Both the position numbers and the translations under genes were made by a program. Below the pieces are notes generated by a model. It did not search any database and was not told the origin of the DNA. It saw nothing but the letters and a program-made list of their open reading frames with translations. This document shows positions 8,124-64,000 of a DNA stretch of 64,000 nucleotides, in pieces. How positions within the stretch are numbered: the first letter of the stretch is position 1; each line of letters starts with the position of its first letter. Source of the DNA: Tubulanus polymorphus (lineage: Eukaryota > Nemertea > Palaeonemertea > Tubulaniformes > Tubulanidae); contig NC_134029.1 of assembly GCF_964204645.1 (NCBI RefSeq), positions 4,845,001 through 4,909,000 of the forward strand, in the 5' to 3' direction.

Positions 8124-9910
8124 GATGAAGTGAATCAAGTTCTCACGACAAATGTTTGGTTGGAACAGGTTAGTACGTTATAACTAATTAGGGTTTTCTG
8201 ACTTTCGTCGAAAACCCTCTTGAAATTCTGTTGATTATTATTATTATATATTTTCCGCCGATTTCGTCAAATAAAATTCATCTTCATTCAGATTCGGCAA
8301 CTGACAGCTTCGAAACGGAATGTATAAATTGATACTGTAATAACGGTCTCTCTGAACCAACAGATTGTCTGAATGTACTTTCCATCCTATTTGAAACTTA
8401 AAATTACTTATTAGGTTACTGTAAATAAAGAATTGAATTGAATTGTTAGACAACAAGCACCGACGAAATAACAGTTTGTGACGTCATTTAGTAAGTAAAT
8501 AAAGGAGGGCTCCGAGAATTTCCAAATCACGGGAGACTATACTGGGTTAGACCATTCAACCAAAAAGAGGAATGCTCTGATAATATCCAAATCATCTCAT
8601 TTTATTTTTTCCATCGAATACCCGGTTATTAATTTTTCCTTTCGATCACATGCATCCAGAAAACCCGTTATAGCTGCTTTGCAGCTATATTTCTTACTAA
8701 ATTTTGATCAACAATTCTATACGATGGGTAACGATAGGTTGACTTGTTTTTCCTCTTTTCGAAAGCTTGATATTTCCCCGTACATGATAAGTCATTACTT
8801 GTTACTTGCTTGGCTCCACTTTACCGCAATATGAGAAGAGCGTGGGCCAACACAGCTTAATCAACGGCACCACCGAGCAATTAATGATTTCTATTCGACG
8901 TTGCGAAGAACTAGTGAATGATAGGGGGATTAGGGAATGGAGGGTGTAAGGCCAATTGCTTACTGATTGGGGATTAATGCAAAATTACATGCAATTTATC
9001 AGATATCGCACAAAATCGCTCGTAATGATAATCTTAACCTTACATTTCCACGTGTGTCGTAGGTAGAAAGTTAAGGCTAATGAAACGTTTGCCTTCTAGT
9101 CTCTTCGTCTATCTATCAAATCTTACTTCCAATATCAGAAGTTAAGATTAAGAATTTGTAGCGGTTCGTATTGACGATAACAGTGTTCGATTGGTGTGAA
9201 CAGAAGAGCTGGTGTGAGCATAGAACTATAACGGAATTCTATGGTGTGAAATGCCATCCGTCATTCTCGATACGGAGTCTATCTTTTTATAGGCTGGGCA
9301 TATGTGTTTGTAAAACGATCTTCTGTACCTTGATATAGTATGGGTCGCCAGTATGTCTGAGTTGGTCGATGACGAGGTCGTGCCGTCCAAAAAGTAGATG
9401 TGCTAGTGAAACTAAATCATATATGTGAAGTCTTAAGTTCATAAAACATTTGCATAATCTACAGGTTTAACTTTCATATTATAGTCCTTAATTTCTACAC
9501 CAGGGAAATCTTTAAGACATTTTGGTATTCCTGGCCAACCCTTTCGGAATGTCCTGTGGTTGTATCCCGATGGACAGATCAGTGTCACGTCTGGAGACGT
9601 CCTTCGTTCAAGGGGAATCTGGTGGAAAAATTAGCCATATTTGCCAACGAACTGCCGCATGTCCTTGAACGGTGGATAATATTGTCAATTACGTCACGGG
9701 CCCCGATTCTAGGTTGTCCCTGCACTGAACCGTTGCCACGTTACCCCGTTGGAACATGTCACGTACAAACAAGGAAAAACATGACGCATTTTCCTGAGGA
9801 TTAGAATTTAATCTCTTTCAACTATCGAAAGTTCAACATAGACAGTAAACGGGAGAAATAAAGAATTGTTTTTCGTATGAAAATTTGCTTGAATGCAACA
9901 GAATTGGAGC

Positions 9911-9957
<47 letters not shown>

Positions 9958-10047
9958 CCGTCTGTCCGTCTGTCCGTCTGTCCGTCCGTCCGTCTGTCCG
10001 TCTGTCCGTCTGTCCGTCTGTCCGTCTGTCCGTCTGTCCGTCTGTCC

Positions 10048-10088
<41 letters not shown>

Positions 10089-13000
10089 CCTGTGTGCCTG
10101 TCAGTCAGTCGGGTCTCTCTGCCCATCTGTCTGTCTACCCATCTGCCTTTTTGCCAATCTGTACCTGTCTGCCAATCTGCCACTTCAACTCGACCTCCAC
10201 CTTCCATTAAGAACTGTACAATAATTAGTGGTCAGACCTGACTAGTTTCTGAAACGCTTTACTCTCGTTTTTTCACGTTTTTGTAATGCGTTTATCACTA
10301 ACGGGGGCGAGGTTTTTCTCTGATGGTGTTTGTTTTATATTGAATCAACTCGTCACTGTGTCTTACCGATTGATAATATCACTAACGACTGTAGATCCGA
10401 CTGCAGTGCGCAAACTGGACGACATTCTTATTAGATTTGTTTGTTTGACTGATTCAATCTTTATTTCTCCCGGCGGGCTATACGTGAACGATAAACTATA
10501 TATAACCTGTCCCCAGGAGGCTTAAATCTGTTGTCATTTCCGCGCGCCGCGTATATACCAACATTTTCAGCGTAAAATTGATATCCAATCTCACGCAGTT
10601 AACTACTACGAAGTAATATCCGTCACGTCATCCATCTTCGTTTTTATTTAACATCACTGGCCGCATAACCCAATTCCACTAATTCGAACACCACGAAATG
10701 TTTAATAGATAGGAGAAAAACATGAATAATGTTAGAAAGTATTAAGAGCAATGATCTCATAAGGGTTGGAAAAGATCGCGCGAAATTTCGACCCGAACTC
10801 GGAAACTTTCATATGTTTTCTGCTCTGCTTTTTGACGATGTATTCCATGGCGGAATGATACCTACATGTGTATATACACCGTCATCAGTGTAATAAGGTG
10901 AAATCATCTCGAATTTCGATGGTCATTATTTAGAAATATCCGTCGTGTCTCTTTATCTTGCAGGAATGGATAGATGAAAGATTGAAATGGGATCCGGCTG
11001 ATTACAATGGATTGCGTGTTTTACGAGTTCCATGCAACAAAATATGGCTTCCAGATATTGTGCTTTATAACAGGTAATTGTAGATTCATGCGGTTGTTAT
11101 TAATTAGTATCGCGTTGCCTGGTGTCTTCGTTACATATAGTGACAATCGTCATTCGTGACTACAAGGAACTTGAGGAAGGTAAACAAGTATGATTTCATG
11201 GAAAAATGGTATGTCATCAGAAGCGGGTATTGTACGCGTGATTCCGGTCTAATTGGATCGGTTGGCTATCTTACCGCTGCGCACTGGAGCCCAGCCCGAC
11301 GGGCGGTGCGAGGTTGACTAAGTAATCAAACCAGCCCATAAATGCCCAAACCTCGATCAACTTAGATCTCCAGTCAGCCTACGCTTCCTTTGTAATGTGA
11401 TGATATAATACTGGCGTCTCTTGCGGATAAATCACTCCTAATACTAGTTTATTGTGGCCATTATTTGTTGATAGCAGTTCTCCGGACAATAGGCTGATTT
11501 TTCCCTGTACAGACATTCAGCCTTTATCATCTGAATGTTTGCCGATAAACCCTTGATCATCGTCGTCATGGCACTGATTTATCAGCTTTATCCCTACACT
11601 AACCTTGCTGATCGCAAAGGACCGGAATAATTGTTATTGTACTAAATGCTACACTGGACATTCTCTCACTGGCGGATAACTCCAAAACAATTGAAGTATA
11701 TGAATTGAAGGCAACCCTGTTCACATTTTGGCATCTTGAGGTCAGAAAGTTATGATTTGGTGACTGTTCATTATGCATTTTCAAATAGAATCAATAAACG
11801 TGAAGACTGGCAACGAAGCCTTAGTATAGGGTATTTTGATTTCATCAAAAATGCCCGTTTTCGTTATACTCCTTGCGTAGTAGCTTCATCGAGTAAAAAG
11901 TGACTGATTCACCCGATGCACTCACTAGCTACGAGAACTCGTAGTTCAAATAAAACCAAGTTAATCTACAAAGTACTGCCAGTCGTCACATTTACTAATT
12001 TGTCATCACGTTAACACGGCTCCTCTATACGAGCCCTCAAGAAATCAAATCTTGAAATAAATCATGACAGTTAAGTCCAACGAAGACGACACGGCATAAC
12101 ACGTGAACAACTCGTTGGATCTCGGACACGTTTTTCCCAAAACCATGTTTCTCGTTTCCGGTAAGCGCACGTGACGCGGGGAACGCTCGGAAACATGTTT
12201 TACAGTCTCCTGTTTCCGTGTTTCCATGTGACGTCTGCGTTGGGCTTAGGATTTCACCATAGAGAAAGAAATGTGTTCATCTCCAATTGTTCAAATCGTT
12301 ACAATGAACAGTCGTGGAACTGGGTCCTAGCGAATAGATAACTATTATTTCCGCCTATACGTATATTTTCTCGCCCGCGATCTATAACTATGATCGATGC
12401 AATAATTGAAGACGATTAGAGACTAGCGCAGATTGGTTCCACCAGTTATGATTTATGATAATCTCTCAACGGCGTTCTGTTGCCTCGTATAAAACACCCC
12501 GACGACGTCTGCAATTATAGACAAAGTCAGTCGTGTTTTATGTGTAGACTTAATAGACGAGAAAAGCCGTAATTACTATAACTCAATCCGATAACCATAT
12601 GGATAATTTTTACGACGTAATTTTCTAATAAGATACACGGCGCGAAATGAGATTTTGATCACAGATTGTCTGCATTTCTACCGGGCATATCGTAACCATA
12701 TAATTAATTTGAGTGAGTGCCAATTGGTTTTTCTGTTTTAATCAAAATGTTGACTTCCCTTTACCTAACTGCTACCAGTTTTTGAGTCGAGAAAGAATGA
12801 ACTCTAAGGTGTTTAAGTAATTGGTAAGGATCCCGTGGCCACTTCCTAAGCTTCCTTAAAGTACCATTGCATTCTCAGGAATAACGACATTTTACGTATG
12901 TCGGTCTGTAAAAACGGGCCCTGATTTCTACTCCTTAACAGCTGCGGAATCGGGTGCTAAAGAGAGACAGGACTGGTTAAGTGTTGCTAGAAAATGTTTA

Positions 13001-17940: not shown

Positions 17941-18290
17941 CTCGGCTAATTTGTTTCTACGGAAAACGAACCGTATATCATTTGATAACCTGGTTCAATT
18001 TATGGCCCTCACAAATCCTTTGCTCGTCAGTGACTTAAGCTTTATGTTCAGGGTCTGTTGATATCAATACATAGAACTGGAAAAGTAAATCTATTATTTG
18101 TATTTCGTCACAGAACACTGCCACTCCTTAACAAATTTTATTTGTTCAGGAACCAGCAGTGGTACGTAGTTTGACCCGATGAACGGAATTAGAACCTCTG
18201 ACCTTGCTGTCCTCTAAATCTATCATTTATTACTTACTTACACCTTGCCGTTTTTCATTCTAATAGCCATATTCAGATTCACAGTAAAAC
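17941..18290. other. Intergenic, nothing recognised
   Basis: Sequence between the MITE-like element and the conserved 3' flank of the first SLC18-like gene. No open frame of interest and no repeat was recognised. Confidence 0.5.
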
Positions 18291-18497
18291 AAAACGTAAA
18301 AAACAGCAAAACAAACGTAACGTTCTTGAATAAAACCTGTACATTATGAATATACCTTTATTTTTCATCTCGATTGAACTTGAAATGTAACAATATACAA
18401 AATACATAATACATAAATGCATTGAGGATAATGTATAAAAACAACCATTCATTATCGATTAAGGTCTAGACAATATCAAGATATAGGCAAACGTAGA

Positions 18498-18519
18498 AAC
18501 AACAACAACAACAACAACA
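18498..18519. repeat. AAC trinucleotide repeat
   Basis: About seven AAC units in the 3' flank of the first SLC18-like gene. The equivalent place in the second copy is not expanded. Confidence 0.8.
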
Positions 18520-18540
18520 TATAGCGTAAGAAACATAAAC

Positions 18541-18800
18541 TATTTCGTTTCAATCCAATATACATAAAAGAGTGTGGATATGCATTTTGTCTCAACGTCC
18601 AAAATGCTGCAAAATGTAAGTTTATCGAGCCGATTGCAGAATATGTAATTAATCTATATCAATACCATATTATTCCGTTTCAACCAAACGTTGATATGCA
18701 TGTCTGTCTCGCCGTACAGCATTTAGCAAAATGTAAGTATACACAGATAGCAGAATAAATAAGAGCCCATATCACTTCAGACATCACAATACAAATCAAG
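18541..18800 (-). repeat. Two tandem ~130-bp units in the 3' flank of SLC18-like copy A
   Basis: Two diverged units start near 18541 and 18671. Both hold TTTCGTTTCAA-like, GATATGCAT, CAAAATGTAAGT and a block like ATATCA in the same order. The same two-unit arrangement is present downstream of the second gene copy (21801-22060), so it predates the gene duplication. It probably lies in the 3' UTR, since TTTATT (AATAAA on the minus strand) occurs at 18965-18970 and again at 18357-18362. Confidence 0.6.
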
Positions 18801-19026
18801 GAAATACAGTTTGCAAAAACGACATGCATTGATTGCAAACTTTTACTGGACTTACTCCAACTTAAGTTGAATAGTTACTTCTTGATTTCCAGATAAATTT
18901 TTATAAGTGAAATCACTAATATCCATTCAAAATGTGATACTTTCATAATGTGTTATATTTTACATTTATTGGCATATGGGCCGTGTTTGTCTAATTCAAT
19001 TGCACACAAAAATGACGACCATATTT

Positions 19027-20700
19027 CTAAATGGCCAATGCATTCTCTTCCGACAGAGCAGACTTATTCAAAACAACCTCGTCTAATGCGGGTTCCGACG
19101 GAGCAGAGTCATCCAAAACAACCTCATCTAATGCGGGTTCCGACGGAGCAGAGTCATCCAAAACAACCTCATCTAATGTGGGTTCGGGCGGAGCAGAGTC
19201 ATCCAAAACAACCACATCTAATGTGGGTTCCGGCGGAGCAGAGTCATTCAAAACAACCTCGTCTAATGTGGGTTCCGGCGGAGCAGAGTCATTCAAAACA
19301 ACCTCGTCTAATGTGGGTTCCGGCGGAGCAGGCTCGTTCAAAACAACCTCGTTTAATGCGGGTTTACTCTGAACCCCGGTAACCACGACATTTGCCAAGG
19401 GAAGTTTGACTTTTTCTGGAATGTTGCGAAGAGCCAGTGCAAATAGAGAAATGACAAAAACAAATATGGCTTCCGCTCTGTAGAGCCATGCGAACGATAT
19501 AATATCTACCAAAACCCCACCGAGGATCGGACCCAGAACGAATCCCAAGTCATTAGACGCAGTAAGCAAACCGAATGTTGGTCCGTAAATACCTGGTTTA
19601 TGGCGTATATCGTTAATAAAACTGAGAGCCGTGCCGACACAGCAAATAACGATACCAGCTCCCAGTCTGAACAGACATTCTGGAGCGATAACAACCCAGA
19701 TCATTTTGCATTCGGGATATAAAGCCATCCCAACCACGCACAGCCACATTCCAGCTATGATGAACTGCCAGCGGTATTTGGTACCACATATACCTACGAT
19801 GGCTTCACCAATGAGCATGAAACATAAACTGACGCACATTATTACACCCATCTGCCACATTTCGGCGTTCAGCGTTTCGATCATCCAATTCGGTCCAGTC
19901 GCCATAAATATACCACCCCCGACATACAGACAAAAACAGCACAGCAACGCGCTGACGAAATACGGGTCTTTTATCAGCGAGAAATAGTAGGTGAACTTGA
20001 TTTTTTCTGAAGAAGTTCGGTCGATGTCGGGTTGTATGATAACCAGTCGCATGGCTCCATCCAGTAATGTAATCACGGCCAATATAAGAAATGGAGTAGA
20101 TAAACTGGATAAAGCAAAAGCCACCGGTCCCAACGGGTACCCGAGAATGAGTCCGATAGAGTAGCCGATATACGCCGTGCTCAGGGCTTTGGTTCGTTTG
20201 CCATTATCGGGAAAAGTCCTAGCTACCAGTGCCAGACACGAGATGACCGATAGACTAGACCCGATAGCTTCAACCACGCGTAGTACGATCAACCAGGCGA
20301 AATTCGGTACGAAAGCGAATCCAACTACGGCTCCGGCGTTGAAAATCATTCCGATTAACATAGGCCAACGATTGCCTAGACGATCAACGACGAAGCCCGT
20401 TATAACGTTGAAGAGTACCTCAGCGGCCGGTCGAGCGGCTATGACGTATCCTATTTGTGTCGATATTTCGTTGGCGCTGTCCGTTGTAGAAAAGTTGTCC
20501 GTTTTATCGTGGAACTCATCCTCGGTGATCGAATCAAAAATCGATCGGTTCGTCTCGCCTAGTTCGAACTTGCGCAAAATAACGGGCAACAGAGGAACTA
20601 AAGTCGAGTCGATCAACGTATGTAAGCACATTGCGATGAAAGTCACCGATACAACAAGCAATGGAGACTTGCGAATCTTCAATATTACGTGTCTCACCAT
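19027..20700 (-). CDS. SLC18-like vesicular amine-type transporter, copy A (557 aa, intronless)
   Basis: Major facilitator protein with about 12 membrane segments, resembling VMAT/VAChT-type proton antiporters that load small cations into vesicles. Seen: Asp31 in the first helix (LIDSTLVPLLP), a luminal loop with two N-glycosylation sequons near residues 51 and 69, MFS motif A (GFVVDRLGNR, residues 102-111), the antiporter motif C region (GLILGYPLGPVAF), and FLILAV-x-LLDGAMR, close to the VMAT sequence. The Asp that VMATs carry in TM10 is not in the same register (TASNDLGFVLGP), so the substrate is uncertain. The whole frame is one exon, unlike typical SLC18 genes, suggesting retroposition. 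The tail (residues 449-553) is seven 15-residue acidic repeats followed by ALAI. It is paralogous to the copy at 22414-23877. Confidence 0.88.
   Translation of the reverse strand: MVRHVILKIRKSPLLVVSVTFIAMCLHTLIDSTLVPLLPVILRKFELGETNRSIFDSITEDEFHDKTDNFSTTDSANEISTQIGYVIAARPAAEVLFNVITGFVVDRLGNRWPMLIGMIFNAGAVVGFAFVPNFAWLIVLRVVEAIGSSLSVISCLALVARTFPDNGKRTKALSTAYIGYSIGLILGYPLGPVAFALSSLSTPFLILAVITLLDGAMRLVIIQPDIDRTSSEKIKFTYYFSLIKDPYFVSALLCCFCLYVGGGIFMATGPNWMIETLNAEMWQMGVIMCVSLCFMLIGEAIVGICGTKYRWQFIIAGMWLCVVGMALYPECKMIWVVIAPECLFRLGAGIVICCVGTALSFINDIRHKPGIYGPTFGLLTASNDLGFVLGPILGGVLVDIISFAWLYRAEAIFVFVISLFALALRNIPEKVKLPLANVVVTGVQSKPALNEVVLNEPAPPEPTLDEVVLNDSAPPEPTLDEVVLNDSAPPEPTLDVVVLDDSAPPEPTLDEVVLDDSAPSEPALDEVVLDDSAPSEPALDEVVLNKSALSEENALAI
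19042..19356 (-). repeat. Seven 45-bp coding repeats in the transporter tail
   Basis: Seven in-frame 15-codon units with consensus LDEVVLNDSAPPEPT. The first unit is LNEVVLNEPAPPEPT and the last LDEVVLNKSALSEEN. The middle units differ by one to three residues. The repeat is acidic and proline-rich and is predicted to face the cytosol. Confidence 0.95.
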
Positions 20701-20759
20701 TTTCGCATTAACGACTAGAACCCAATTTTGTCGTCAATTAGTCTCAAATGATAATGATA

Positions 20760-21420
20760 TAAGCATAGGTTTTTTACAACTGCTGTACACGAGCAACACT
20801 ATCTTTCACCATGCATAGAACGTACTGTGGCTTGTACAAAACAAAACGCCTAGTGTGTTAACCAGACCGAGCTAAAATATAACTTAGTCATGGTAATTTC
20901 ACGTGTGACCCTAATGACCGGTCTTGAAGTTTTGCGCTTAGCACGTGGCTGCGTCACATCAGTGGTCAGATACAATGAATGACAGACCAGTTGAAGTTCA
21001 TGAATCACCCGTTTGCGTTTCTGAATTGACTGCGTAAATAAAAAACCTGTTTTTTGTTCTGTGCGAATGTTATTTACGTGGAGAAACTGTAACTGTAATT
21101 GTATGTATAAAACTGACAATCCAAATTGTGTGTTCTTTTGTCAAAATCTGCTATTTATGTGGAGTTTGACACTATCCGATATTTTGTTAAGCCTCATGTC
21201 TATGCTTGACATTTAAAGGGGTAGATGCAGGTATGAAGATATTCGACTTGCGTCCAAAATGTGGCCGAAATCAGCACTTAGAACAAATAGTTTTATATTT
21301 TCCTTATTTTCTATTGTTAAAAAAGGCCTGTGGATACAGAGTTGAAGTGGCCTTCTTTATCGCTCCTTCTGCGAGGAATTCGATCCACGAAATCGAAAAC
21401 GAATCCTTAAAATGAAACGT
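20760..21420. other. Spacer between SLC18-like copies
   Basis: 5' flank of copy A. The first 80 bases upstream of the ATG resemble the corresponding flank of copy B. A stretch at 21300-21420 (GGCCTGTGGATAC ... ATCCACGAAATCGAAAACGA) resembles 24200-24300 upstream of copy B, showing that the duplicated block includes the 5' flank. No gene was seen. Confidence 0.6.
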
Positions 21421-21800
21421 ACAATTAAAAGCAAAGCAAACGTAACTTTCTTGAATAAAACCTGGATAAATATGAATATACCTTTATTTTTCGTCTCGAT
21501 TGAACAAGAAATGTAACAACATACAAACGTTTAAATGAACTTAAACATAGATTACGTATGGATATTTTATGCGCTCTTATATGCCAAAATTGGCCGGTTG
21601 GATCAATTCATTATCAAATTTTGTGACGAAATTATGCACAATAAACAAAGAATATACGTAATACATATTACATAATAAATGCATGATATATAACACATAA
21701 AAACTACCATTAATTTTCGATTGAAGTTATGACCATATCGAGATATAGGCACACGTAAAAACGAAAACCACAACATAGAGCGTAAGAAACATATAAATTA

Positions 21801-22060
21801 TTTCGTTTCAACCAAATATACATAAAAGAAAGTGAATATACATTATGTCTGTCTCAACGTACACGATTTTGCAGAATGTAACTTCATCTAACCGATTGCA
21901 TGATATGTAAGAATTCATATCACTTGTAAACTGTTTCGTGTCAACCAACAATACGTGATAGAAAGAGATATGTATTTTTGTCAAAACGTACAAAATTTTG
22001 CAAAATGTAAGTATACAGAGCCGATCGCAAAATACGTAAGAATCTATATCACTTAAGAAA
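21801..22060 (-). repeat. Two tandem ~134-bp units in the 3' flank of SLC18-like copy B
   Basis: Units beginning near 21801 and 21934 share TTTCGTTTCAACC-like starts, CAAAATTTTGCAAAATGTAAG-like centres and CATATCACTT-like ends. They are the counterparts of the units downstream of copy A. TTTATT at 22317-22322 is a possible minus-strand polyadenylation signal closer to the stop codon. Confidence 0.6.
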
Positions 22061-22413
22061 TAACAGTACAAATCAAGAATAGACGCACAATTTAGAAAAA
22101 GGAGTGCGCTTTTCTGCGTAAACGAATACGTTAATTGGAAAGCTGTAACAAATTTACTGGAACTTAAGTTCATTAGTTAGTTGTGAAGTGATTTGTGAAA
22201 AAAATGAAAAACCTACGAATAACATCGCTCATATCCATGTAAATATCAAAACCTATGTAATACTCTAATTACAGGCGGAACAGAATGTCTCATATGTTAT
22301 ATTTTTACTGTTGACATTTATTGGTATATGGACCGTGTTTATCTAATTCATTTACAAACATTACGACGGTCATATTTTTCTATAGAAGTGTAAGCGGACG
22401 CTTCTATTATTTT

Positions 22414-23877
22414 TCAAATGGCCAATGCATTTTCTTCCGATGGTACAGATTCATTCAAAGCAACCTCGTCTGATGTGGGTTTCAACAGTGCAGAGTCATT
22501 CAAAGCAACCTCATCTAATGCTGGTTCACTGGTTATCTGAACCCCGGTAACGTCAACATTTGTCACGGGAAGTTTGACTCTTTCCGGAATATTGCGAAGA
22601 GACAGTGCGAATAGTGAAATGATAAAGATAAACATGGCTTCCGCTCTGTAGAGCCACGCGAACGATATGATATCTACCAAAACCCCGCCGAGGATCGGAC
22701 CCAAAACGAATCCCAAGTCATTAGACGCAGTAAGCAGACCGAATGTTGGTCCGTAAATACCTGGTTTATGGCGTATATCGGTAATATAACTGAGAGCCGT
22801 GCCGACACAGCAAATAACGATACCAGCTCCCAGTCTGAACAGACATTCTGGAGCGATAACAACCCAGATCATTTTGCATTCGGGATATAAAGCCATCCCA
22901 ACCACGCACAGCCACATTCCAGCTAAGGTGAACTGCCAGCGGTATTTAGTACCACATATACCTACTATGACTTCACCAATGAGCATGAAACATAAACTGA
23001 CGCACATTATTACACCCATCTGCCACATTTCGGCGTTCAGCGTTTCGATCATCCAATTCGGTCCAGTCGCCATAAATATACCACCCCCGACATACAGACA
23101 AAAACAGCACAGCAACGCGCTGACGAAATACGGGTCTTTTATCAGCGAGAAATAGTAGGTGAACTTGATTTTTTCTGAAGAAGTTCGGTCGATGTCGGGT
23201 TGTATGATAACCAGTCGCATGGCTCCATCCAGTAATGTAACCACGGCCAAGATAAGAAATGGAGTAGATAAACTGGATAAAGCAAAAGCCACCGGTCCCA
23301 ACGGGTACCCGAGAATGAGTCCGATAGAGTAGCCGATATACGCCGTGCTCAGGGCTTTTGTTCGTTTGCCGTCGTCGGGAAAGGTCCTAGCTACCAGCGC
23401 CAGACACGAGACGACCGATAGACTAGACCCGATAGCTTCAACCACGCGTAGTACGATCAACCAGGCGAAATTCGGTACGAAAGCGAATCCAACCACGGCT
23501 CCGGCGTTGAAAATCATTCCGATTAACATAGGCCAACGATTGCCTAGACGATCAACGACGAAGCCCGTTATTACGTTGAAGAATACCTCAGCGGCCGGCC
23601 GAGCGGCTATGACGTAACCCAATTGCGTCGATATTTTGTTGGCGCTGTCCGTTATTGAATCATTGATGCCGTTGTTCGTTTTATTATGGAACTCATCCTC
23701 GGTGATCGAATCAAAAATCGATCGGTTCGTCTCGCCTAGTTCGAACTTGCGCAAAATAACGGGCAACAGAGGAACCAAAGTTGAGTCGATCATCGTATGT
23801 AAGCACATTGCGATGAAAGTCACCGCTACAACGAGCAATGGAGACTTGCGAATCTTCAGTATTACATGTCTCACCAT
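22414..23877 (-). CDS. SLC18-like vesicular amine-type transporter, copy B (487 aa, intronless)
   Basis: Second, nearly identical member of the tandem pair, with the same MVRHVILKIRKSPLLVV start, the same motif A (VVDRLGNR), motif C and FLILAV-x-LLDGAMR core, and the same ALAI end. It differs mainly in the first luminal loop (four extra residues and different glycosylation sites) and in the tail, where only two degenerate 15-residue units remain (residues 454-483). Membrane transporter of the SLC18/VAT type by sequence; substrate not predictable. It is also a single exon. Start codons of the two copies are 3177 bp apart and stop codons 3387 bp apart; the difference reflects the tail repeat and luminal loop. 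Both frames are intact, so both copies may be functional. Confidence 0.88.
   Translation of the reverse strand: MVRHVILKIRKSPLLVVAVTFIAMCLHTMIDSTLVPLLPVILRKFELGETNRSIFDSITEDEFHNKTNNGINDSITDSANKISTQLGYVIAARPAAEVFFNVITGFVVDRLGNRWPMLIGMIFNAGAVVGFAFVPNFAWLIVLRVVEAIGSSLSVVSCLALVARTFPDDGKRTKALSTAYIGYSIGLILGYPLGPVAFALSSLSTPFLILAVVTLLDGAMRLVIIQPDIDRTSSEKIKFTYYFSLIKDPYFVSALLCCFCLYVGGGIFMATGPNWMIETLNAEMWQMGVIMCVSLCFMLIGEVIVGICGTKYRWQFTLAGMWLCVVGMALYPECKMIWVVIAPECLFRLGAGIVICCVGTALSYITDIRHKPGIYGPTFGLLTASNDLGFVLGPILGGVLVDIISFAWLYRAEAMFIFIISLFALSLRNIPERVKLPVTNVDVTGVQITSEPALDEVALNDSALLKPTSDEVALNESVPSEENALAI
22429..22518 (-). repeat. Two 45-bp coding repeats in copy B tail
   Basis: Units LDEVALNDSALLKPT and SDEVALNESVPSEEN are homologous to the seven-unit array of copy A. 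This marks unit number as the main difference between the paralogues. Confidence 0.9.
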
Positions 23878-24067
23878 TTTCGCATCTAACGACTAGAACC
23901 CAATTTATTGCAAAGTCTGAAACGATTATGATACGGGTGATTGTTTTACCACTGTTGTTCACATGCAACGCCACAATTTAGCATTGAACAATATATACAG
24001 GGGCTAGTTCACAAAAGCACGGCATCTAGAAATGTACATGGCGTGTGTATACAAGACTTATGTATAT

Positions 24068-56300: not shown

Positions 56301-56723
56301 ACTATTTTTCAAAATTTTTTTATGTTTTCAAGATAATGCTGGAGACGTTAATGTTAAATTTGGCTCCATATCTTATCGACAATGTAAATAAGACAAACAT
56401 TTTGTTTTGACGCTACTTCCAAAGTTCGCGTCGTCTGTGGCAACCGAACTGTATCTGACGATATTGGTTCATTGCGCTGGGTCTCCAAAAACTGCTGGAA
56501 GCTGAACAACCACGTGTTTCCAGCTAATATCCACAAGTAGACCGATGTCTTTACGCAACACTCTATCGCGGTTGTCCTACAAAGTTTGCAAAATGTTGAC
56601 TAGAGTAAAACAAACGAGATTGGAAAATCAAATGCAAATCTTTGCAATTTGTTAGAAAACATTAACCAGAAAGAACGATGATCTGAAGTAAATGTTTTTT
56701 GTAAGTGTAATTTATATTTGCAT

Positions 56724-58287
56724 CTATGATATACTTTGAATACTCGCTACATAATTCAAAGAAGCGTTATCTGTCTCGTTATTAATTTCATCAGTTTGTT
56801 TTGGTTTCTGTTTGATATGTTTGATCCAATCTGGAATCAGTATCACAACGCAAATACAAAACAAACCGGCGCAGAAATAGAACGAGATCGCGTAGTTTCC
56901 CGTTGCGTCGTAAATCCAACCTGAAAAAGAAAACATGCGTAAAATAGATTTAATCGGTGGTAATGAGACCTGGAATGAGACCGAGGTTTTTACGTATGGT
57001 GAGACCTACCAGCGACTGGAGCACCGAGCAAATATCCAAATCCCCCCAAAAACATACTATACGAATATGCCATGTACAAATATTCCTTTCCGAATTGTTC
57101 CAGAATTATCAACATATGTAAACAACCATAGCCAGTGATTGAAATCCCGATACAAGCCCCGGCTGCCAGGGCTGCTGCATAACCCTTCATAAATGGTATT
57201 ACACCGACTTGAATCGCGAATAACGTGTTCAGAATCATGTAGAAGGTGAAGGTATCGATCCTGGGATGTTTGGCCAGAAGTGAGACAATGATGCGCGCAA
57301 AAAGTGACGATAGACCAAGCGCTGATAAAGTAAATCTCGCCTGTTCGGGGGATATTTCCAATAAAACTCTAGTTCCAGACACGATATGCACATATACCAT
57401 CGATATTCCACCACATAACAAAAATGTGTGTATAACAAATGCTACGAATAACTTATTTTGAAAAAGGTCCAACTGATGAAGATCGCGAAATCTTTTGGTT
57501 TTCTCGCATTTCTTCTGCCGCAATAGCGATTCTTGGTTTTCCTCGAGTTCTGGAAGCGGTTTTTTGGACCAGCGACGAAATATGAGTCCTATCGCGCATT
57601 GCTGAGCCACTATTCCGCTAAGAATCATACAGCATCCGCGCCAACCGTACAGTTTCAAACAGTAGTTTATGATAAACGGGAAAGAAAGAACGCCGATCGA
57701 ACTACTGGTTGTCCTCATGCCTTGTACAAGTGCCGCCTGCTTTGGAAATCGGTATATTAGATATGGTCCTAAACTACAATAATGAATAGTGAAGCCACAT
57801 CCTGAAAAATTAAGAGCAAAGGCATTAAAATGAACATTCAATCTAACAAAGGAACCATATTTCAAGTTTACCTGCTAAAAATCGTAATGCTATTGCGAGG
57901 TAGATATTGTATGTGAATGACGTCACAGCTGCGGCTGATGCGTTGATCGTTGAAGCGATGAAAAATACTTTGCGAAAACCAAATCTTTTTACCAATAGAT
58001 TTGCGATCGGAGCTGAATATGAAAGGTAAATAATCAAAAGAAGAGAATGTCCACGATAGCTAACACTTACCCCTGAACTTACCCCCACAACAGCTGATTC
58101 CGATGATAGCCGTACCGAGCCAAGCTGTTACACCGCTTCCCTTGTGAAAATAGTTCACCCATTCCGCCACCAGAATTCCATCAACGTAATTACCTCCTCT
58201 GATGAACGAAGAGGCGAAACCAGCAGCCAAGACGATTACTGTTTCCAACAGGTTTGACTTCTCATTATTTACTGCTTTGTCGGCCAT
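56724..58287 (-). CDS. SLC16-like (monocarboxylate transporter family) protein, copy 1 (444 aa)
   Basis: Major facilitator transporter with about 12 membrane segments, plasma-membrane type. Exons on the minus strand: 58083-58287, 57872-58012, 57010-57801 and 56724-56920, all joined in phase 1 and totalling 1335 nt. Seen: WLGTAIIGISCCGAPIANLL and KRFGFRKV, matching the MCT TM2 and loop; a long charged central loop (residues about 190-230); an Arg in the predicted TM8 (FARI, Arg285), equivalent to the MCT substrate Arg. The MCT partner Asp four residues earlier is Ser281, and the N-terminal DGGWGW signature is absent, so proton-coupled lactate transport is not safe to assume. The start MADKAVNN is 28 bases below a TATA-like stretch. 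The protein is identical to copy 2. Confidence 0.88.
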
Positions 58288-58314
58288 AACTTAATCTTAT
58301 GCGTCGCATTGTGG

Positions 58315-58325
58315 TATAAATATAT
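58315..58325 (-). promoter_or_regulatory. TATA-like element upstream of SLC16-like copy 1
   Basis: TATAAATATAT (plus-strand reading; ATATATTTATA on the transcribed strand) about 28 bases above the ATG. It is identical at 60961-60971 in unit 2. In unit 3 one base is changed (TATAGATATAT, near 63607-63617). Confidence 0.4.
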
Positions 58326-59369
58326 CGATCAATAAAAAGACGACCTTTGAGCGATTGATCGAAATTCTATTGACTTTCTTGTCCTGGTGATAAGCTTGTA
58401 TTATGTAACAAAGTCCCATGTAAAATGTTCTCCAAAACCAATGGATATTTTAAGGCCAAAGTATTATGTATAATATGTACAGCCGCTAACCTTGACACAC
58501 TCATTTAATCGTATATTTGATTCTGTTTTATTACGCTGTATAGGTCGCGTCATACGAGTTATGTCAAAGATAATTTTTCAACGCTTATTGAATAGACGCA
58601 GTGATCTTGCAGTTTCCAAGAAGGAAAAACGTAGATATCGAATGGCAAATTTGTGGGTGATTCTTTGCTTTTGGAGACGTAAAAAAGGAATTTGGTATTA
58701 TAATACCGGTAGTTCATTTTAGAAGAACCCGTGCAATAGAAATAAATTCATGTACGCGGATAAGCACAAAATGTAGAATTTTCTTAAAAAGTGATGTAGA
58801 TATATGACAAATAAAATGATGCATTTCACTTCAAACTGACCGCAAATTTCACTAGGATATGGCTCTATCTTGGCCCTGTAGTGGTTAACAAACTGGTAGC
58901 CTCCAATGATATTCAGGAATATTTCTTAGCACGGCGTGGCCAAAAGCTACCTTCACACGACAAGCATATTTTTTTCATGCGATTCCAAAAAGTTTGGTAT
59001 TCTCACGCGAAAAAACAAAAAAACGGGCTATTTTTGTGGATGTTTTTTTGTCGTTGCTCTAACCGTACAGAAGGATTTTTTAGTACGGCCCGAATCAGCC
59101 ACCATAAAACTAGGCTAGATGGATACATTTTAATCTTGTTAGGCGACTCAAATACACTATGCAATGGTGATCAAGTAATTTGTTTCCAGCTAATATCCAC
59201 AAGTAGACCGATGCCTGTCTTTACACGGCTAACATACTCTATCGCGGCTGTCCTACACTGTTGACACTGTTGACAAAATGTTGTATAACAAATAAGATGG
59301 GTAGATCAAATGTAAATCTTTGCCTTTTGTTAGAAAAGATTAACCAGAAAGAACGCTAATGTGAGGTAT
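58326..59369. other. Spacer between SLC16-like copies 1 and 2
   Basis: About 1 kb of AT-rich sequence, repeated almost exactly at 60972-62015 and partly at 63618-64000. Open frames at 58492-58722 and 58881-59264 recur in the second spacer only because the DNA is nearly identical; neither shows domain features. The segment 59180-59360 is the older homologue of 56512-56720. Confidence 0.6.
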
Positions 59370-60933
59370 CTATGATATACTTTGAATACTCGCTACATAA
59401 TTCAAAGAAGCGTTATCTGTCTCGTTATTAATTTCATCAGTTTGTTTTGGTTTCTGTTTGATATGTTTGATCCAATCTGGAATCAGTATCACAACGCAAA
59501 TACAAAACAAACCGGCGCAGAAATAGAACGAGATCGCGTAGTTTCCCGTTGCGTCGTAAATCCAACCTGAAAAAGAAAACATGCGTAAAATAGATTTAAT
59601 CGGTGGTAATGAGACCTGGAATGAGACCGAGGTTTTTACGTATGGTGAGACCTACCAGCGACTGGAGCACCGAGCAAATATCCAAATCCCCCCAAAAACA
59701 TACTATACGAATATGCCATGTACAAATATTCCTTTCCGAATTGTTCCAGAATTATCAACATATGTAAACAACCATAGCCAGTGATTGAAATCCCGATACA
59801 AGCCCCGGCTGCCAGGGCTGCTGCATAACCCTTCATAAATGGTATTACACCGACTTGAATCGCGAATAACGTGTTCAGAATCATGTAGAAGGTGAAGGTA
59901 TCGATCCTGGGATGTTTGGCCAGAAGTGAGACAATGATGCGCGCAAAAAGTGACGATAGACCAAGCGCTGATAAAGTAAATCTCGCCTGTTCGGGGGATA
60001 TTTCCAATAAAACTCTAGTTCCAGACACGATATGCACATATACCATCGATATTCCACCACATAACAAAAATGTGTGTATAACAAATGCTACGAATAACTT
60101 ATTTTGAAAAAGGTCCAACTGATGAAGATCGCGAAATCTTTTGGTTTTCTCGCATTTCTTCTGCCGCAATAGCGATTCTTGGTTTTCCTCGAGTTCTGGA
60201 AGCGGTTTTTTGGACCAGCGACGAAATATGAGTCCTATCGCGCATTGCTGAGCCACTATTCCGCTAAGAATCATACAGCATCCGCGCCAACCGTACAGTT
60301 TCAAACAGTAGTTTATGATAAACGGGAAAGAAAGAACGCCGATCGAACTACTGGTTGTCCTCATGCCTTGTACAAGTGCCGCCTGCTTTGGAAATCGGTA
60401 TATTAGATATGGTCCTAAACTACAATAATGAATAGTGAAGCCACATCCTGAAAAATTAAGAGCAAAGGCATTAAAATGAACATTCAATCTAACAAAGGAA
60501 CCATATTTCAAGTTTACCTGCTAAAAATCGTAATGCTATTGCGAGGTAGATATTGTATGTGAATGACGTCACAGCTGCGGCTGATGCGTTGATCGTTGAA
60601 GCGATGAAAAATACTTTGCGAAAACCAAATCTTTTTACCAATAGATTTGCGATCGGAGCTGAATATGAAAGGTAAATAATCAAAAGAAGAGAATGTCCAC
60701 GATAGCTAACACTTACCCCTGAACTTACCCCCACAACAGCTGATTCCGATGATAGCCGTACCGAGCCAAGCTGTTACACCGCTTCCCTTGTGAAAATAGT
60801 TCACCCATTCCGCCACCAGAATTCCATCAACGTAATTACCTCCTCTGATGAACGAAGAGGCGAAACCAGCAGCCAAGACGATTACTGTTTCCAACAGGTT
60901 TGACTTCTCATTATTTACTGCTTTGTCGGCCAT
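59370..60933 (-). CDS. SLC16-like transporter, copy 2 (444 aa)
   Basis: Second unit of the array, with exons 60729-60933, 60518-60658, 59656-60447 and 59370-59566, each exactly 2646 bp from the counterpart in copy 1. The predicted protein shows no difference from copy 1. All splice sites and the reading frame are intact, so it is expected to be as functional as copy 1. Transport role by family only: MFS/SLC16 fold with the TM8 arginine kept and the usual preceding aspartate replaced by serine. Confidence 0.88.
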
Positions 60934-62015
60934 AACTTAATCTTATGCGTCGCATTGTGGTATAAATATATCGATCAATAAAAAGACGACCTTTGAGCGA
61001 TTGATCGAAATTCTATTGACTTTCTTGTCCTGGTGATAAGCTTGTATTATGTAACAAAGTCCCATGTAAAATGTTCTCCAAAACCAATGGATATTTTAAG
61101 GCCAAAGTATTATGTATAATATGTACAGCCGCTAACCTTGACACACTCATTTAATCGTATATTTGATTCTGTTTTATTACGCTGTATAGGTCGCGTCATA
61201 CGAGTTATGTCAAAGATAATTTTTCAACGCTTATTGAATAGACGCAGTGATCTTGCAGTTTCCAAGAAGGAAAAACGTAGATATCGAATGGCAAATTTGT
61301 GGGTGATTCTTTGCTTTTGGAGACGTAAAAAAGGAATTTGGTATTATAATACCGGTAGTTCATTTTAGAAGAACCCGTGCAATAGAAATAAATTCATGTA
61401 CGCGGATAAGCACAAAATGTAGAATTTTCTTAAAAAGTGATGTAGATATATGACAAATAAAATGATGCATTTCACTTCAAACTGACCGCAAATTTCACTA
61501 GGATATGGCTCTATCTTGGCCCTGTAGTGGTTAACAAACTGGTAGCCTCCAATGATATTCAGGAATATTTCTTAGCACGGCGTGGCCAAAAGCTACCTTC
61601 ACACGACAAGCATATTTTTTTCATGCGATTCCAAAAAGTTTGGTATTCTCACGCGAAAAAACAAAAAAACGGGCTATTTTTGTGGATGTTTTTTTGTCGT
61701 TGCTCCAACCGTACAGAAGGATTTTTTAGTACGGCCCGAATCAGCCACCATAAAACTAGGCTAGATGGATACATTTTAATCTTGTTAGGCGACTCAAATA
61801 CACTATGCAATGGTGATCAAGTAATTTGTTTCCAGCTAATATCCACAAGTAGACCGATGCCTGTCTTTACACGGCTAACATACTCTATCGCGGCTGTCCT
61901 ACACTGTTGACACTGTTGACAAAATGTTGTATAACAAATAAGATGGGTAGATCAAATGTAAATCTTTGCCTTTTGTTAGAAAAGATTAACCAGAAAGAAC
62001 GCTAATGTGAGGTAT
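60934..62015. other. Spacer between SLC16-like copies 2 and 3
   Basis: Near-identical copy of the previous spacer. At least one substitution distinguishes them (GCTCTAACC at 59056 region, GCTCCAACC at 61703 region). No gene was recognised. Confidence 0.6.
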
Positions 62016-63579
62016 CTATGATATACTTTGAATACTCGCTACATAATTCAAAGAAGCGTTATCTGTCTCGTTATTAATTTCATCAGTTTGTTTTGGTTTC
62101 TGTTTGATATGTTTGATCCAATCTGGAATCAGTATCACAACGCAAATACAAAACAAACCGGCGCAGAAATAGAACGAGATCGCGTAGTTTCCCGTTGCGT
62201 CGTAAATCCAACCTGAAAAAGAAAACATGCGTAAAATAAATTTAATCGGTGGTAATGAGACCTGGAATGAGACCGAGGTTTTTACGTATGGTGAGACCTA
62301 CCAGCGACTGGAGCACCGAGCAAATATCCAAATCCCCCAAAAAACATACTATACGAATATGCCATGTACAAATATTCCTTTCCGAATTGTTCCAGAATTA
62401 TCAACATATGTAAACAACCATAGCCAGTGATTGAAATCCCGATACAAGCCCCGGCTGCCAGGGCTGCTGCATAACCCTTCATAAATGGTATTACACCGAC
62501 TTGAATCGCGAATAACGTGTTCAGAATCATGTAGAAGGTGAAGGTATCGATCCTGGGATGTTTGGCCAGAAGTGAGACAATGATGCGCGCAAAAAGTGAC
62601 GATAGACCAAGCGCTGATAAAGTAAATCTCGCCTGTTCGGGGGATATTTCCAATAAAACTCTAGTTCCAGACACGATATGCACATATACCATCGATATTC
62701 CACCACATAACAAAAATGTGTGTATAACAAATGCTACGAATAACTTATTTTGAAAAAGGTCCAACTGATGAAGATCGCGAAATCTTTTGGTTTTCTCGCA
62801 TTTCTTCTGCCGCAATAGCGATTCTTGGTTTTCCTCGAGTTCTGGAAGCGGTTTTTTGGACCAGCGACGAAACATGAGTCCTATCGCGCATTGCTGAGCC
62901 ACTATTCCGCTAAGAATCATACAGCATCCGCGCCAACCGTACAGTTTCAAACAGTAGTTTATGATAAACGGGAAAGAAAGAACGCCGATCGAACTACTGG
63001 TTGTCCTCATGCCTTGTACAAGTGCCGCCTGCTTTGGAAATCGGTATATTAGATATGGTCCTAAACTACAATAATGAATAGTGAAGCCACATCCTGAAAA
63101 ATTAAGAGCAAAGGCATTAAAATGAACATTCAATCTAACAAAGGAACCATATTTCAAGTTTACCTGCTAAAAATCGTAATGCTATTGCGAGGTAGATATT
63201 GTATGTGAATGACGTCACAGCTGCGGCTGATGCGTTGATCGTTGAAGCGATGAAAAATACTTTGCGAAAACCAAATCTTTTTACCAATAAATTTGCGATC
63301 GGAGCTGAATATGAAAGGTAAATAATCAAAAGAAGAGAATGTCCACGATAGCTAACACTTACCCCTGAACTTACCCCCACAACAGCTGATTCCGATGATA
63401 GCCGTACCGAGCCAAGCTGTTACACCGCTTCCCTTGTGAAAATAGTTCACCCATTCCGCCACCAGAATTCCATCAACGTAATTACCTCCTCTGATGAACG
63501 AAGAGGCGAAACCAGCAGCCAAGACGATTACTGTTTCCAACAGGTTTGACTTCTCATTATTTACTGCTTTGTCGGCCAT
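62016..63579 (-). CDS. SLC16-like transporter, copy 3 (444 aa, two substitutions)
   Basis: Third unit, exons 63375-63579, 63164-63304, 62302-63093 and 62016-62212. Compared with copies 1 and 2 the protein has Ile189Met (loop after TM6 region) and Leu367Phe (MFFGGFG, in a late membrane segment), plus a silent change in a leucine codon of exon 2. The upstream TATA-like stretch also carries a substitution. The frame is intact. Same family features and same uncertainty over substrate. Confidence 0.88.
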
Positions 63580-64000
63580 AACTTAATCTTATGCGTCGCA
63601 TTGTGGTATAGATATATCGATCAATAAAAAGACGACCTTTGAGCGATTGATCGGAATTCTATTGACTTTCTTGTCCTGGTGATAAGCTTGTATTATGTAA
63701 AAAGTCCCATGTAAAATGTTCTCCAAAACCAATGGATATTTTAAAGCCAAAGTATTATGTATAATATGTACAGCCGCTAACCTTGACACACTCATTTAAT
63801 CGTATATTTGATTCTGTTTTATTACGCTGTATAGGTCGCGTCATACGAGTTATGTCAAAGATAATTTTTCAACGCTTATTGAATAGACGCAGTGATCTTG
63901 CAGTTTCCAAGAAGGAAAAACGTAGATATCGAATGGCAAATTTGTGGGTGATTCTTTGCTTTTGGAGACGTAAAAAAGGAATTTGGTATCATAATACCGG
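63580..64000. other. Start of a further array spacer, cut by the window edge
   Basis: Matches 60934-61355 with a few substitutions and one 1-bp deletion, so the repeat continues past 64000. Whether a fourth gene copy follows cannot be seen. Confidence 0.85.

Follow-up and report, generated by a model that had tools for sequence, protein, structure and literature searches.

Transporters of the SLC18A family (VMAT1, VMAT2 and VAChT) are MFS proteins with 12 membrane segments, a long first lumenal loop containing N-glycosylation sequons, and a cytosolic C-terminal tail, and trafficking signals reside in these tails. The pocket of VMAT2 is lined by the acidic residues D33, E312, D399 and D426 (PMC10959523). 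Drosophila Portabella is an orphan SLC18-related protein, related to VMAT and VAChT yet neither of them (PMC8566550). A lineage-specific repeat has been described in the cytosolic tail of one SLC18 protein: the C-terminal polyQ tract of Drosophila VAChT, in which a change by a single residue alters vesicle filling and release (PMC6402538). Coding minisatellites, among them those of FLO1 and FLO11, consist of in-frame units longer than 10 bp that are unstable through slippage or recombination, and effects of their length have been shown on cell-surface proteins (PMC3899988). We found nothing specific in the literature on expansions in SLC18 proteins.

The window (the whole stretch of 64,000 nucleotides of Tubulanus polymorphus DNA analysed here) contains a tandem pair of transporter genes, A and B (Table 1). 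Pfam MFS_1 matches both, with an E value of 4.8e-42 for A. The best solved relative of A in the PDB is VMAT1 (1.6e-56), followed by VMAT2 and by VAChT (9e-31), and the matches to SLC18B1 (4e-07) and NorA (4e-05) are weaker, placing A in the SLC18 / drug:H+ antiporter type, closer to SLC18 than to other MFS proteins, as originally predicted. In A, too, the first lumenal loop is long and contains N-glycosylation sequons. The hydropathy profile of A has exactly 12 hydrophobic segments with predicted cytosolic ends, and basic residues fall mostly in the even loops, as in a positive-inside arrangement, so the tail behind segment 12 is most likely cytosolic, which agrees with the original prediction.

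Table 1. Positions of the features of the A/B locus within the window.
Feature	Position	Strand	Basis or remark
Coding sequence of gene A, one open frame of 557 aa encoding an SLC18-like MFS transporter whose tail is expanded	ATG 20700 to stop 19027	-	ORF and translation; Pfam; VMAT1 match; 12 hydropathy peaks
Coding sequence of gene B (487 aa), the tandem paralogue of A at 92% protein identity	23877 to 22414	-	ORF, genome search, A/B alignment
Array of seven 45-bp units, in frame (A residues 447-551)	19048..19362	-	TRF, unit listing, genome-wide DNA search
Two 45-bp units, residues 452-481 of B	22435..22524	-	Unit 1 contains DSALL (DxxLL-type)
C-terminal ENALAI and stop of A, common to B	19027..19047	-	Unit listing
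Duplicated segment, copy A: coding sequence with similar 3' and short 5' flanks	18285..20759	-	blastn A vs B
Duplicated segment, copy B	21408..23933	-	blastn A vs B

The pocket differs from that of VMAT2. The four acidic positions listed above align with H27, M266, I352 and T380 of A, and the pocket-aligned residues of B are identical to those of A, so neither protein carries any of the four acids. At a distance of one helical turn from the pocket positions, A does have Asp (D31 and D384); R189 of VMAT2 is conserved as R141, and K138 is replaced by R90. Lacking all four acidic residues, neither A nor B looks like a VMAT or VAChT orthologue, and orthology to either is unlikely; with the amine-site acids absent, a vesicular role for the pair is itself unproven. 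VAChT is represented by a separate, clear gene in the same genome (contig C4, 6e-178 to solved VAChT). In being related to VMAT and VAChT while probably neither of them, A and B are like Portabella, a likeness drawn by description. The genome holds further SLC18-like matches, many as single open frames, and a tree joins A to B with full support, nested among SLC18-like genes from the same genome. Four closely similar SLC18-like genes were also seen on contig C6 (loci L003-L006 and L016); the distance between L004 and L005 is ~512 kb, and in-frame stops break up the L006/L016 copy.

TRF identified an array of 45 bp x 7.0 at 19048-19364 in A (93% matches, score 487), within the uninterrupted 557-aa reading frame. 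Codon shuffling gave a TRF score of no more than 70 in 1000 controls, 500 made from the complete coding sequence of A and 500 from its tail. With tandem units longer than 10 bp, a multiple of three in length, inside an open frame, the array is an in-frame coding minisatellite. The original prediction had suggested as much and had placed it at 19042-19356, which is the same array in another register. Read in frame, the units of A are PALNEVVLNEPAPPE, PTLDEVVLNDSAPPE (twice), PTLDVVVLDDSAPPE, PTLDEVVLDDSAPSE, PALDEVVLDDSAPSE and PALDEVVLNKSALSE, and those of B are PALDEVALNDSALLK and PTSDEVALNESVPSE, making the predicted count of seven against two exact. Both proteins terminate in ENALAI. The units are rich in Glu/Asp, Val/Leu and Pro, also as predicted, and this acidic, hydrophobic and proline pattern is retained in all of them; the tail of A has a net charge of -26 over 132 residues, vs. 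-8 over 59 residues in B. A plus-strand ORF crosses the array (18897-19382), and we set it aside, having no other support for it, because a 45-bp period tends to leave frames open. When the entire assembly (267.8 Mb in 77 contigs) was searched at the DNA level, the array was found in A and B only, a restriction that is not absolute since the search passes over very common words; a mobile or genome-wide repeat was ruled out on this result.

Comparison of the units indicates when the array grew. The proportion of silent differences (pS) is 0.10 among A units and 0.27 between A and B units, and position 7 of the unit is Val (GTT) in all seven A units and Ala (GCT) in both B units. Units 2 and 3 of A are identical, and units 5 and 6 are one base apart, as recent duplication between neighbouring units would leave them. 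The lower silent divergence within A and the GTT/GCT split indicate that the A array spread or was homogenised, through local duplication or homogenisation, after the A/B duplication, consistent with the predicted expansion in A and not in B. Of the 45 bases, 10 differ between the two B units, which matches the divergence of A units from B units and makes an old two-unit state probable. None of the other family members examined has the repeat, and their tails span 5-34 residues, except for the 119 residues of the VAChT gene. Unit number varies between the paralogues, and a polymorphic unit number in the A array is plausible; no alternative haplotype of the array was found in the one assembly. 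Silent divergence is also uneven along the rest of the pair, with 6 of 139 silent sites differing in alignment codons 201-400, vs. 27 of 182 in the remaining body (P 0.0025). The low-divergence stretch, 19500-20100 in A against 22670-23280 in B, suggests gene conversion between the two genes.

The transporter body is constrained, with a dN/dS of 0.23, whereas among the A units pN is 0.107 and pS is 0.103 (pN/pS ~1.0). Parsimony assigns ~9 replacement and 3 silent changes to the A array; although 12 changes is a small count, they fit neutrality (P 0.66) and fit a body-like constraint poorly (P 0.018), and testing the array changes directly against those of the body gives P 0.057. When A units are compared with B units, the ratio falls below 1 (0.65), so that some weak constraint may have acted on the units.

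We consider it likely that the array is a coding minisatellite of the ordinary kind, which gained units in the permissive tail of A after the A/B duplication and has been drifting under weak or no selection. A short, probably two-unit, stretch would have grown to seven units in A following the tandem duplication, likely by replication slippage or unequal exchange between units. Its location would be permissive, beyond the final membrane helix, in a tail that is most likely cytosolic, rich in proline and acidic residues, and probably disordered; we judge disorder from composition, because structure prediction from A and B alone was too poor for use (mean pLDDT 33.9). Additions of 15 residues would preserve the frame at little cost, and unit number and sequence would therefore drift, the repeat probably having no specific function.

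Neutral substitution inside the units is compatible with selection on the length or charge of the tail. The expanded tail of A could then be functional, with unit number serving as a dial on vesicle sorting, retention or transporter activity, which we regard as unlikely. The trafficking role of SLC18 tails, the retention of the acidic, hydrophobic and proline pattern in every unit, and the effect of a single polyQ residue in Drosophila VAChT all point in this direction. Like A, the fly protein has a lineage-specific repeat in a cytosolic SLC18 tail; unlike A, it is a true VAChT with a single-residue repeat and a measured effect, and the 15-residue acidic unit of non-VAChT A is known from sequence, as is its array in comparison with FLO1 and FLO11. 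Against a role for length or charge stand the neutral ratio of unit divergence and the two-unit B, which is equally intact as a gene. The motifs that such a role might use were also not found: the A tail contains no match to [DE]xxxL[LIM], DxxLL, YxxPhi or NPxY, and thus no dileucine of the VMAT/VAChT type. DSALL, the single dileucine candidate of the pair, sits in the shorter tail of B. Other short elements are present in the A tail, namely seven VL pairs, three CK2-type TLDE sites and PxxP spacings, and a canonical EEFELL occurs in locus L018, a remote member of the family whose tail is different. The suggestion in the original prediction that the repeat could tune vesicle targeting is not borne out by units that have no recognised sorting motif and diverge at a neutral ratio, in a protein without the VMAT amine-site acids. 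As sorting signals the A units found no positive support, and a role that depends on tail length is conceivable purely by analogy with the polyQ tract. That a polymorphic unit number in A is a heritable dial on sorting or activity, separating its role from that of 92%-identical B, is highly improbable.

Could each unit instead be a degenerate version of the SLC18 acidic dileucine region, as in VAChT, providing many weak adaptor-binding sites? The unit segment DEVVLNDSAPP aligns with EETVLVDDYPP in the tail of the genome's own VAChT (shuffle P 0.015, uncorrected), and the latter segment aligns with the dileucine region of solved VAChT. However, the second leucine is replaced by Asn or Asp in every A unit, and by the same shuffle the likeness to the VAChT tail gives P 0.053 for the whole A tail and P 0.72 for the B tail, so homology of the unit to the VAChT dileucine region is unproven. 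We find this explanation improbable. Similarly improbable is a seven-unit count produced by assembly error, collapse or expansion: tandem arrays are error-prone, two A units are identical and the count comes from the assembly alone, but the array spans 315 bp, most of its units are distinct, its frame is intact, and an assembly of 268 Mb in 77 contigs was probably built from long reads, each exceeding the array in length.

If the array is a neutrally drifting minisatellite, the locus is a clear, small case of a tandem-duplicated transporter pair diverging first in the tail while the membrane body is constrained. Should tail length matter, the pair would offer a natural test of what the tail does, given two almost identical bodies. 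Of these two cases, the neutral one is favoured by the evidence.

In this genome, arrays of this kind are not rare. Four weak matches of the tail at the protein level, on contigs C67, C11 (two) and C4, were rejected as relatives of the tail repeat; they are unrelated open-frame repeats of 45 bp x 8.6, 45 bp x 21.5, 15 bp x 33.5 and 15 bp x 47.1. An arbitrarily placed 150-kb sample contained another in-frame array, of 24 bp x 8.5, within a 281-residue open frame. Repeats in reading frames have been reported for ~17% of human genes (PMC3899988), and one survey found strong recent unit turnover to be rare in human proteins (PMC3995336), which makes the A/B difference notable as a case and not in kind.

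Several further repeats were observed. In locus L023 (1-1601), ALGKR-type cleavage sites recur along an open frame that resembles a neuropeptide precursor, and the locus also has a separate 45 bp x 8.6 open-frame array. A 31-bp (62/93) satellite-like array occurs on several chromosomes (L033, L034 and L037), the arrays being grouped here by period, and it takes up all 10 kb of sample L034, which lies on the same contig as the window. Within the window, an 8-bp minisatellite, CTGTCTGT, at 9910-10179 has ~28 copies and is open in several frames on both strands. At 56722-64000, a tandem repeat with a period of 2646 bp and copies 99.5-99.8% identical continues past the window end, and each copy carries a minus-strand ORF of 294 aa that is MFS-like and, judged by eye, possibly of the monocarboxylate-transporter type.
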